DNA of 64,000 nucleotides from an uncultured Granulosicoccaceae bacterium (GTDB lineage: Bacteria; Pseudomonadota; Gammaproteobacteria; Granulosicoccales; Granulosicoccaceae): contig CALLLW010000038.1 in the NCBI GenBank assembly GCA_938007995.1, positions 1 to 64,000 of the forward strand, read 5' to 3'. Shown here one piece after another: positions 48,090 to 51,885 of the stretch; positions within the stretch are counted from its first letter, which is position 1; each line of letters starts with the position of its first letter. Below the pieces are notes generated by a model, which saw only the letters and a program-made list of their open reading frames with translations, was not told where the DNA came from and searched no databases. A program made the position numbers and the translations under genes.

Positions 48090-48123
48090 ATGATGAGCGC
48101 CAGGCTGCCAGTCTACTATGTGT

Positions 48124-48294
48124 GGGCTGTTTGGAAAGTTCGGTAACACTTTTCTTCGCCACAGCCGCCATAGCTGCGTTTACCATAGTTGATAAATAAT
48201 GGCTCGACGCAGGCCCTGCTATGCCTGCGTCTTTTCGCGCAAGCTCAGCCGACTGTGGCTGTGAAAGTTTGTTACCGAACTTTCCGCACAGCCC
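48124..48294. repeat. Palindromic intergenic repeat, family B copy 2
   Basis: 171 bp. The left end GGGCTGTTTGGAAAGTTCGG and right end CCGAACTTTCCGCACAGCCC are near-perfect inverted repeats, and an inner pair CGCCACAGCCGCC/GACTGTGGCTG also matches. It shares the core GCCGCCATAGC and CTCGACGCAGGCCCTGC with 22302-22438. No transposase lies inside. It is MITE-like or a large intergenic hairpin. Confidence 0.85.
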
Positions 48295-48407
48295 ACTCTA
48301 GGGTTACAAAGATTCGCTTTCGATCTCATCGACTGATCCACATTTCGCTGGCATGTTTAGTGTCGCAGTATTAGCTCGAACAGGCCTTTTGAAGCAGTGT
48401 AATTTTC

Positions 48408-50465
48408 GTGACTAAAGTCGGTACATTTTTCTCAAAGTTAGCAGACAGGCAGCGCAAGCGTAGAACGCAAAGCTCTCACCTTGTGATGGCTTATGGCATT
48501 TCAGTGGTGTGCTTACTGGCAGCTATAATCATCAGTTATTCGGTAATAGAGAATGCCATCTCGACACAAAGAACGCTGATCAGGGCCAACACGTTAGTCC
48601 GCGACATTCAGATCGCCATGACTGACTCCATCGGTGTCATCAACGATTATCGTGAAGAGTCTACAAAGAAACGACCCAACGACCGCTTACTACAACTGAT
48701 TAACCGTCGTGCCATAGCGAATTTTAAAGAGCTTGAACAGCACGTCACTCACATCAATACCGTTGAGACTGATCTTCGCACCACGCCGGTATGGCATGAA
48801 ACCCGCTGGTTTCTGGAACGGAAAGAAGACTCGCTGTCTGCAATGCTCGGCGACTACCTCAATCAAATGGAGATCATCGCGTCAAGCACTCCGGGTACAG
48901 CACCACAGAATCTCGCGCAAATTCCGGTTGAAGCAGCTGGAGCTCGAGACGGAGCACTTTTCAACGGTTATCAAAAGGCGGCAGAGTTACTCGAGGCCAA
49001 GCTTGATGAAAACTCCAATAGAGTCGAACGCATACATCGTACGCTCACCGGGCTGACAATCGCCGTAATATTATTGATTACCTGCGTTGTTGTTGCCCCC
49101 CTGTGGCGACGATTTAGAAAAGAACACAACCGTCTGGAACGAGCGCATCAGGAATTGCACGAGGTTGCTTACACAGATCGCGACACCGGCCTGCCGAATC
49201 TAAGCGGCTTGCAAATCTACTATGATCAAATGGATCCGCGTCCGGATGAACTGCATTTGCTACTGGTAAGATTCAGAAATCTCGATGAAATATATAACTT
49301 GATCGGCAGCCATAAAGTCGACGAGCTGTTGCAATCAGTGAGTCGACGACTTCAGAACTGGAACAATCAGCAACTCAAATGGTGTCGTAGTGGTGAGGCT
49401 GAATTCAGCACCCTTGTTGCAGATTCAACACTGCAGACAGAAGAAGAATGGGTTCACGCGCTGCACTACTCACTGACACGCAAACTCACGATTGAAGGAG
49501 TGATAGTCAAGCCGGACGTAAGCCTCGCTGTGTCAAAACTGGACTCTGCTGCAAACGCCAGTGCCCACAGTTTATGGGAACACCAGTCTAACGCAAGACT
49601 GGCGTCGGCAAATTTCCAGCCACCCGGCTGCTGGCTACCGGCTTACCAGGAGAGCATGAAAAACAAACTGGCCGATCAAAACAACCTGATCAATAAAATC
49701 AGTGAAGGTATTGCCGCAAACGAGTTCGTGCCCTTTTACCAGATTAAAGTCTGTGCAAAAACCGGTACGCCATGTTCCATTGAAGTACTTGCCCGATGGA
49801 TAACACCTGATGGCAACATGGTCCCCCCCGGTGCTTTTATTCCGGTAGCAGAAAGCTCGGGTCTTATCATCAAGCTCACCTATTCACTTTTTGATCAGGT
49901 ACTCAGTGACATTCAACAATGGTGTTCTTCCGGCCTGTCAATAGGTCGAGTGGCAATTAACATTGCCGGTGATGTGCTGTATCACAATGAATTACTGGAT
50001 CGACTGAAAATCATGAATGAGTCGCTACCTGTGAATTGCAAGGGCATTGAAGTGGAAATCACCGAGAATATTGCTCTGGGTGATCAGTTGGGGCAAGCCG
50101 AAGCAATTCTTCGCCATATCCGCAACATGGGAATACATGTCGCTATAGATGACTTCGGTACGGGCTATGCCTCATTGCAGACGTTGCTGGACATGCCGGT
50201 AGACGTATTAAAAATCGACCGATCCTTTGTCTTGCCTATGACCGAAGGAGGCACAGGCAACGAAGTGATATCAGCGATGATTTCACTCAGTAACAAGCTC
50301 AACAAAGTATGCGTTGTAGAGGGCGTCGAAACCCAATGGCAGTGGCGCCAACTGGCAGATTTAGGTGCAGACGAACTTCAGGGTTTTTACTTTCACAAGC
50401 CCGCAGCAGCAAAAGAAGTCTCTGCTGCTCTTTATGATAAAACCGACTGGAAAATGACAGGCTGA
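48408..50465 (+). CDS. Membrane EAL-domain phosphodiesterase with degenerate GGDEF domain
   Basis: 685 residues from GTG 48408. Two membrane helices (about 25-45 and 213-232) flank a 165-residue periplasmic helical sensor. The GGDEF domain (about 255-410) is degenerate: the active site reads RSGEAEF. The EAL domain is complete: CSIEVLARWITPDG, VEITENIALGD, IDDFGTGYASLQTLL, VDVLKIDRSFV, VVEGVETQWQW, and GADELQGFYFHKP. It should hydrolyse cyclic-di-GMP. The next gene encodes a solute-binding protein, suggesting ligand-controlled signalling; that is inference. Confidence 0.92.
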   Translation: MTKVGTFFSKLADRQRKRRTQSSHLVMAYGISVVCLLAAIIISYSVIENAISTQRTLIRANTLVRDIQIAMTDSIGVINDYREESTKKRPNDRLLQLINRRAIANFKELEQHVTHINTVETDLRTTPVWHETRWFLERKEDSLSAMLGDYLNQMEIIASSTPGTAPQNLAQIPVEAAGARDGALFNGYQKAAELLEAKLDENSNRVERIHRTLTGLTIAVILLITCVVVAPLWRRFRKEHNRLERAHQELHEVAYTDRDTGLPNLSGLQIYYDQMDPRPDELHLLLVRFRNLDEIYNLIGSHKVDELLQSVSRRLQNWNNQQLKWCRSGEAEFSTLVADSTLQTEEEWVHALHYSLTRKLTIEGVIVKPDVSLAVSKLDSAANASAHSLWEHQSNARLASANFQPPGCWLPAYQESMKNKLADQNNLINKISEGIAANEFVPFYQIKVCAKTGTPCSIEVLARWITPDGNMVPPGAFIPVAESSGLIIKLTYSLFDQVLSDIQQWCSSGLSIGRVAINIAGDVLYHNELLDRLKIMNESLPVNCKGIEVEITENIALGDQLGQAEAILRHIRNMGIHVAIDDFGTGYASLQTLLDMPVDVLKIDRSFVLPMTEGGTGNEVISAMISLSNKLNKVCVVEGVETQWQWRQLADLGADELQGFYFHKPAAAKEVSAALYDKTDWKMTG

Positions 50466-50583
50466 TTGTTTGAACCTGTTCTTGTCACAGGGCACGCTGT
50501 CTGCAAGTACTGCAACCAGTATAGGAAATTCACTTCACCAGAATGCAGGGTCGGAAAAGAAGCGCATCCGACCGGGAGTTTGC

Positions 50584-51885
50584 GTGGGCACTAAAAAATT
50601 TCGGAATTTGATCATAGCGGCGTCGATAGCTGTCAGTTGTATTGCTGACGCCAATGAAAAGCCACAGGCTGAAATTCTGCACTGGTGGTCAAGCCCTGGT
50701 GAGTCTGCGGCACTCGATGTAATCATCAATGCATTCAAGGCTCGCGGCGGTCACTACTACGATTCAACACAGGACAGTCAGATTGCCAATCGTCAGGAAG
50801 CAATTGAAAGAATGGGCAAAGGCTATCCCTCCACTCTGACACAATGGAATGCCGGCAGGGATGTACGAGAGTTCTATGACTACGGTTTAATCGATGCAAT
50901 CACTGACCCGAAGCTGATAGCCAAGCTATCAGATAGCCTACCTAAAACCATTCTTGACACAATTACCCACGAAGGCAACATTGTGGCGATGCCGGTGAAC
51001 ATTCACAGTGAAAACTGGATGTGGTACTCCACTGATCTGCTCGACTACTCCACCAAATCAATTTCCGGAGACTGGCAACAGTTCCTTGAGCTGGGGAGCG
51101 AACTTGCCAAAAAACAGATCCCGCTACTTGCAGTCGGTGATCAGCAATGGCAGATCAGGATTTTGTTCACCAGTTTATTCCTCGGTATTTCACGCGATGT
51201 ATATAAAGACTTTTATCTGACAAACCAGGGCTCCACCGCAACCATCGACAGCGCAGAGTTCAGACGAGTGCTTGAGGTATTCAATCAACTTGGAAGTTTT
51301 AGCAAATCATTTGGTGACGGCAACTGGAACACACAGGTTAAGGCCGTTGCTGACAACAAAGCTGGTGCTACGTTTATGGGTGACTGGGCCAAAGGCGAGT
51401 TTCAAACTTTGGGCAAAACTGCAGGCGAAGAATACGGTTGTGCGCTTACTGCGGGCGCTGACCCAAGCTTGTTGCTGGTGATTGATGCATTTATTCTCGG
51501 TAAGGTCACTGATCCACTTGAGAAAGCGGGCCAGTCTCTAATGCTTGATGTGATTTCGGATCCTGAAATCAATGCACGGTTCAATCAACTTAAAGGCTCT
51601 GTGTCACCTTTTGCGCATGCTGCAGAAGATACTCTTGATGTATGCAGCAAGCAGGTGCACAAAATACTCACCATTGACGACGCTGTTATTCCGCCTTACG
51701 CCTCGCACGGTCTCGGCGAATATGTGCACCAAATTGATAACGAGATCTACCGCCTCTGGAAGGCATCGCAGCAAAACAGCGACACTGCAGAAAAAATCAT
51801 CGAAACCAGTCTCAACAACTTCAAAGCAATAATGAGTGAGATTGAACAGGAAAATTCACGTTCTCTTGCCACGATCGAAGAGTAG
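50584..51885 (+). CDS. Orphan extracellular solute-binding protein (UgpB/family 1-like)
   Basis: GTG 50584 is chosen: GGGAG lies five bases before it and the signal peptide (VGTKKFRNLIIAASIAVSC) starts there. A longer frame from 50470 adds 38 non-signal residues. The mature part has AEILHWWSSPGESAALDVI, RMGKGYPSTLTQWNAGRDV, NIHSENWMWYSTDLLD, and GATFMGDWAKGEF, as in sugar/polyol family-1 binding proteins. No permease or ATPase gene is adjacent. It is 118 bp downstream of the EAL gene and could feed a ligand signal to it. The AVSC could be a lipobox. Confidence 0.88.
   Translation: MGTKKFRNLIIAASIAVSCIADANEKPQAEILHWWSSPGESAALDVIINAFKARGGHYYDSTQDSQIANRQEAIERMGKGYPSTLTQWNAGRDVREFYDYGLIDAITDPKLIAKLSDSLPKTILDTITHEGNIVAMPVNIHSENWMWYSTDLLDYSTKSISGDWQQFLELGSELAKKQIPLLAVGDQQWQIRILFTSLFLGISRDVYKDFYLTNQGSTATIDSAEFRRVLEVFNQLGSFSKSFGDGNWNTQVKAVADNKAGATFMGDWAKGEFQTLGKTAGEEYGCALTAGADPSLLLVIDAFILGKVTDPLEKAGQSLMLDVISDPEINARFNQLKGSVSPFAHAAEDTLDVCSKQVHKILTIDDAVIPPYASHGLGEYVHQIDNEIYRLWKASQQNSDTAEKIIETSLNNFKAIMSEIEQENSRSLATIEE

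Follow-up and report, generated by a model that had tools for sequence, protein, structure and literature searches.

An inner-membrane c-di-GMP receptor gene and the solute-binding protein (SBP) gene that follows it in the window (the whole 64,000-nt stretch analyzed here, positions 1 to 64,000 of contig CALLLW010000038.1 from an uncultured Granulosicoccaceae bacterium) very probably form a single signalling module, in which the SBP would bind a carbohydrate, dock on the sensor of the receptor and change c-di-GMP hydrolysis. Specifically, the orphan SBP is predicted to act as a signal donor to the EAL receptor, a reading supported by the conservation of the gene pair and by the finding of no partner permease.

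Architecture of the receptor and its solute-binding protein

The receptor gene (48408..50465, + strand) begins with GTG and encodes 685 aa that, according to the ORF, Pfam matches, hydropathy and alignment with MorA, comprise a sensor, a degenerate GGDEF domain and an intact EAL domain. Hydropathy revealed two transmembrane (TM) helices, TM1 at residues ~24–43 (48477..48536, +) and TM2 at residues ~212–233 (49041..49106, +), separated by a periplasmic loop of ~165 residues, which is the length proposed earlier from the sequence alone. The sensor domain occupies residues ~46–211 (48543..49040, +) and is tentatively assigned to the four-helix type from AlphaFold2, Foldseek and Pfam results. Its model is helical (mean pLDDT of 80) and resembled the NarQ and Tsr/Tar sensors with Foldseek probabilities of 0.98–0.99 but with E-values above 0.1, i.e., not significantly; such E-values are usual for helix bundles in Foldseek. 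The Pfam search yielded no convincing family and no 4HB match for this domain, nor a TorS sensor match for the receptor. Four-helix sensors are known to serve SBPs as docking sites, as exemplified by Tar with maltose-binding protein and TorS with TorT.

On the cytoplasmic side, Pfam matched a GGDEF domain at residues 254–392 (34.6 bits; 49167..49583, +) and an EAL phosphodiesterase domain at residues 429–665 (196.7 bits; 49692..50402, +). The former carries RSGEAEF at 49386–49406, with the second glycine of GG(D/E)EF and the following acidic residue both substituted, and comparison of the motifs showed that it lacks the GG(D/E)EF of an active diguanylate cyclase. Two motif positions are altered in each of the 10 family receptors aligned (10/10 degenerate), the variants being GEAEF in the window receptor and GESEF, GDEEF or GDNEF in the other members. 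Only the branch comprising Rhizobium and genome G777 retains an intact motif (RLGGDEF/RIGGDEF), and thus the GGDEF domain appears, from these alignments, intact in the Rhizobium/G777 receptors and lost in the family of the window. Alignment with the EAL domain of MorA located the complete residue set of EAL-type c-di-GMP phosphodiesterases (E, N, E, DD, K, E, Q) at E459, N518, E550, D581, D582, K602, E638 and Q658, and these catalytic residues do not vary among the 10 family receptors aligned. Both the degenerate GGDEF and the intact EAL site that the sequence-only reading had described were thereby confirmed. Upstream, between the AsnC and receptor genes, we observed a nearly perfect palindrome of ~176 bp (48122–48297; fold z-score of −8.7) with ~10 copies at 85–94% identity and ~9 more diverged ones in the same genome, which points to a MITE-like element.

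The second gene (50584..51885, + strand) encodes a putative periplasmic SBP of 433 aa including the signal peptide, which Pfam, PDB matches and the alignment of homologues place in the GltB/GtsA glucose-binding family. It matched SBP_bac_8/SBP_bac_1 above the cut-offs as well as the sugar SBPs 4r2b (3.7e-41), 5dvf (2.4e-37) and 8hqq (5e-36), in agreement with the earlier description of a family-1-like binding protein. The last of these, which we take to be GltB from the title of the structure, scored 223 bits against SBP profile A1. PDB searches at E ≤ 0.001 (single sequence) and E ≤ 1e-10 (profile) returned glucose/sugar SBPs only and no PotD/polyamine SBP. The earlier choice of TTG 50470 as the start codon did not hold: GTG 50584 has GGGAG just upstream and is followed by the signal peptide MGTKKFRNLIIAASIAVSCIADA, and homologues align from about this position, while TTG 50470 would add 38 residues without counterpart. 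GTG 50584 is therefore the most likely start and TTG 50470 the less probable one, which sets the distance between the receptor stop codon and the SBP gene at ~118 nt. Removal of the signal peptide would leave a mature protein encoded by 50653–51882.

The residues that contact glucose have been given for Pseudomonas putida GltB (PMC7927077), and the window SBP retains W35, W36, E41, Q90, W250, W270, D303 and K339. The protein thus combines homology to the GltB/GtsA family with the glucose pocket, the exceptions being K92, replaced by N, and N301, replaced by V. Since most of the other SBPs sampled also have N at position 92, we rejected this change as a marker of signalling SBPs. All 16 receptor-linked SBPs, in turn, have V at position 301, compared with 6/112 others, and position 91 is W in all 16 and in 3 others; V301 and W91 discriminate the receptor-linked SBPs, yet common ancestry alone can explain both. 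Because the pocket residues are kept but positions 92 and 301 are changed, the ligand is probably a carbohydrate, not necessarily glucose. A separate observation concerns Oxalobacteraceae loci, including L102, L111, L118 and L123, in which SBPs of this family have Q at position 301 and no GtsB/C-type permease was found nearby.

Conservation of the gene pair

We searched for the SBP in 48 genomes of the family (an order-level search covers the same 48) and found identity tiers of 62–68% and 38–42%, followed by a clear drop to ≤32%. At all upper-tier loci with enough DNA, the receptor gene directly precedes the SBP gene in the same orientation; at every lower-tier locus read in the family genomes, it is absent beside the SBP. 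A search with the sensor domain revealed 12 receptor loci in the family, 11 of which have the SBP directly downstream (two of these are split by contig ends but readable on both pieces), and the twelfth, in G016, is cut by a contig end. Genome G018 contains two paralogous copies of the pair, in which each receptor has an SBP to itself, and the pair neighbourhood in G014 and G018 is the same as in the window, with TypA and a beta-keto acid cleavage enzyme in both and sulfite reductase in G018. A weak sensor match in G012 (25 bits, in a 1,423-aa ORF) was treated as chance.

The arrangement extends well beyond the family. A genome scan with the SBP profile, which returned mainly transport SBPs that we used as controls, showed the same receptor-SBP order in Rhizobium phaseoli and R. 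vallis. Rhizobium sensor domains are only ~20% identical to that of the window but give a full-length profile match (hhalign probability of 94.7). A sensor profile that included two Rhizobium sequences, searched against 399 genomes of the phylum, identified two new strong matches, one in a Rhizobium-like genome and one in a gammaproteobacterium from a different family. In each case, SBPs of the family studied here come directly after the receptor, two of them in tandem in the gammaproteobacterium (L194:7577-10482). Among PLSDB plasmids, the receptor occurred on 34 Rhizobiaceae records, 32 of which carry an intact SBP in the same orientation, starting 1.4–1.5 kb past the sensor match. One of the remaining two, from Sinorhizobium americanum CCGM7, was examined and has an intact receptor with the SBP broken into fragments (L200:7206-7819); it is a natural SBP-less receptor. 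In Rhizobium sp. N324, three co-directional TadE/TadG pilus genes come after the pair (L199:10166-14120), a possible link to attachment. A search of viral contigs found no relatives.

Collectively, the conservation that the sequence-only reading had proposed to examine held in the family (11/12 loci), in another gammaproteobacterial family and in 32/34 Rhizobiaceae plasmids. The SBP gene is downstream of the receptor in every locus read, and the pairing is kept where the SBPs are only ~30% identical. An IQ-TREE phylogeny placed the 16 receptor-linked SBPs on one side of a branch (94/86), opposite 40 other SBPs, with the reservation that two long branches come together in this tree. One further candidate, L139 in genome G107, was suggested by its FastTree placement and left out: it sits on a long branch, its GGDEF-EAL neighbour, encoded on the opposite strand, shows no obvious TM sensor, and no genuine match to the sensor was obtained in that genome. 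A mirror-tree comparison gave r values of 0.91 for SBP versus sensor and 0.98 for SBP versus the cytoplasmic domains; since the correlation is no lower for the cytoplasmic domains, the distances are consistent with co-inheritance and not indicative of contact. Gene neighbours can be co-inherited without touching.

Importer partners, rival readings and the proposed mechanism

The sequence-only reading had noted no permease or ATPase at the SBP gene, and indeed no CUT1 permease or sugar-importer-type ATPase was found from 36 kb to the end of the window. Profile searches for GtsB/GtsC-type permeases showed a CUT1 permease near 0/15 receptor-linked loci versus 70/80 other loci of the same SBP family; in this respect, the window SBP departs from GltB/GtsA, for which CUT1 permeases and an ATPase are co-encoded. 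We also sought an obvious partner elsewhere in the organism's own genome, which has 67 BPD_transp_1 matches, by searching for permeases family by family and inspecting each locus in turn, and found none: each CUT1-type cluster examined has an SBP gene of its own, with eight of nine cluster candidates matching SBP Pfam families and the ninth, an ORF located where the SBP gene would be expected, giving no Pfam match. Nor does the genome contain a close relative of GtsB (best identity of 32% over part of the protein, and 28% for the best score), a permease of the type that accompanies this SBP family in relatives. Since the genome is ~91% complete and a partner permease could be missing from it, the absence suggested by these searches is strong but not absolute. 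The same genome contains, at L164 (G000:C68:25000-34000), a separate AlgQ/Lpl-like SBP accompanied by an ATPase and two permeases; this may be an importer of alginate oligomers.

These findings bear directly on two other roles for the SBP. It might both feed an importer and signal to the receptor, as do maltose- and ribose-binding proteins and as has been found for GltB, an experimentally studied member of the family (PMC7927077); we regard this dual role as improbable, given that receptor-linked SBPs have no permease at any locus and that no unpaired permease turned up among the clusters examined. Still less probable is that the SBP works solely for an ABC importer with permeases encoded at another site, its position beside the EAL gene reflecting co-regulation only. 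In its favour, the nearest relatives of known structure are transport SBPs, the pocket for sugar is preserved, and orphan SBPs that share a distant permease exist; however, the contrast between receptor-linked and other loci, the private SBP gene of each CUT1-type cluster examined, the lack of a close GtsB relative and the persistence of the receptor pairing at only ~30% SBP identity all argue against it. That the receptor senses directly, with an SBP that only scavenges or presents nutrients and is adjacent from shared ancestry only, is likewise very unlikely: four-helix sensors can bind small ligands themselves (Tar, NarQ), but adjacent genes with unrelated functions seldom stay together across such divergence, and two lineages gained a second SBP at the same place.

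We therefore favour the signal-donor module, which would operate as follows. The SBP would be exported to the periplasm, bind a small carbohydrate there and dock onto the putative four-helix periplasmic domain of the receptor, from where the signal would pass via TM2 to the cytoplasmic EAL domain and alter c-di-GMP hydrolysis; the GGDEF domain would make no c-di-GMP and serve only as a structural or GTP-sensing element. An outside sugar would thereby decide between the attached and the swimming state of the cell. As to the sign of the effect, the most likely option, which we put at about an even chance, is that the liganded SBP holds the phosphodiesterase down, so that sugar would favour attachment, because this is what NspS-MbaA predicts (PMC8079147).

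Known systems, additional pairs and significance

Control of c-di-GMP enzymes by SBPs is already known from NspS-MbaA, from ArtI-STM1987 and from ScrB-ScrC of Vibrio parahaemolyticus. In NspS-MbaA (Vibrio cholerae and Sinorhizobium meliloti), as in the window, an orphan SBP gene adjoins that of a two-TM receptor with GGDEF and EAL domains, and the ligand is read in the periplasm (PMC8079147, PMC9993111), as we propose here. However, NspS is a PotD-type polyamine SBP and ours is of the glucose type; nspS lies upstream of mbaA, mostly overlapping it (PMC9993111), whereas our SBP gene is downstream of the receptor; and S. meliloti MbaA has ~232 periplasmic residues plus HAMP, compared with ~165 residues and no HAMP match here. 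V. cholerae MbaA has EVL instead of EAL and an altered GGDEF, SGDEF (PMC8079147, PMC9993111), which is needed for signalling, whereas two motif positions are changed in every member of the present family. Salmonella ArtI-STM1987 (PMC8846402) and ScrB-ScrC (PMC9602780, citing its reference 18) likewise couple a c-di-GMP enzyme to a periplasmic SBP or SBP-like protein that the enzyme requires or is linked to; both involve SBP families other than ours, and STM1987 has a dCache sensor domain.

Control of a receptor by the present SBP family is also known, for a kinase: P. aeruginosa GltB binds the periplasmic sensor domain of GtrS with a KD of 0.1 µM and activates it (PMC7927077). Here too an SBP of this family would act on a membrane receptor, but GtrS belongs to the histidine kinases, and GltB has a further function in glucose import. 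TorT-TorS and related pairs resemble our proposal in that the SBP contacts a helical sensor, but their output is a kinase, and the window receptor gave no TorS sensor match. We looked at ten other loci of the SBP family without a nearby permease and found one beside a TorS-type kinase: in a Desulfobacteraceae MAG (L071:5917-10102), the gene directly after that of the SBP encodes a hybrid histidine kinase whose sensor domain is of the TorS type, which makes another candidate SBP-receptor pair. The c-di-GMP receptor, the GtrS kinase and the TorS-type kinase suggest the recruitment of a single SBP family by receptors of several kinds.

A second SBP accompanies the pair in one sub-branch (L038–L041), where the next gene encodes an AlgQ1/AlgQ2-like, i.e., alginate-type, SBP (E-value of 7e-166; L038:6483-8210, L039:10964-12592, L040:8663-10273 and L041:2627-4336). 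No permease was found near these four genes. Because the AlgQ-like SBP adjoins the pair, one receptor may take signals from more than one SBP. Granulosicoccaceae live as epiphytes on kelp; Granulosicoccus has flagella and type IV pili, and alginate lyase genes occur in the family (PMC9238374).

The literature that we searched, consisting of open-licence papers, contained no paper on the receptor-SBP pair, the sensor family or the second SBP; relative to that literature, the combination of a glucose-type SBP with a c-di-GMP receptor, the putative four-helix sensor family and the second SBP appear to be new. The excerpt of a 2022 review of c-di-GMP sensing that we consulted describes sugar control by way of EIIA-Glc, a PTS protein that acts on PdeS, and gives SBP_bac_3 as the sole domain of the PBP clan to have been studied in c-di-GMP networks (PMC8846402). 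The signal of most c-di-GMP enzymes is not known, and every receptor described here is accompanied by a candidate donor of its signal. Assays of the donor's pocket with purified protein and a panel of sugars could therefore reveal the cue directly. The module is also present in laboratory strains that can be cultured, among them Rhizobium etli CIAT 652 and Sinorhizobium fredii NGR234, which makes genetics easy. More tentatively, and with rather less than even confidence, we suggest that these receptors may read carbohydrates only via dedicated SBPs, with several plug-in SBPs possible (glucose-type and, in one branch, AlgQ-like), and that sugars of algal or plant hosts may thereby determine whether bacteria associated with kelp and legumes attach or leave.
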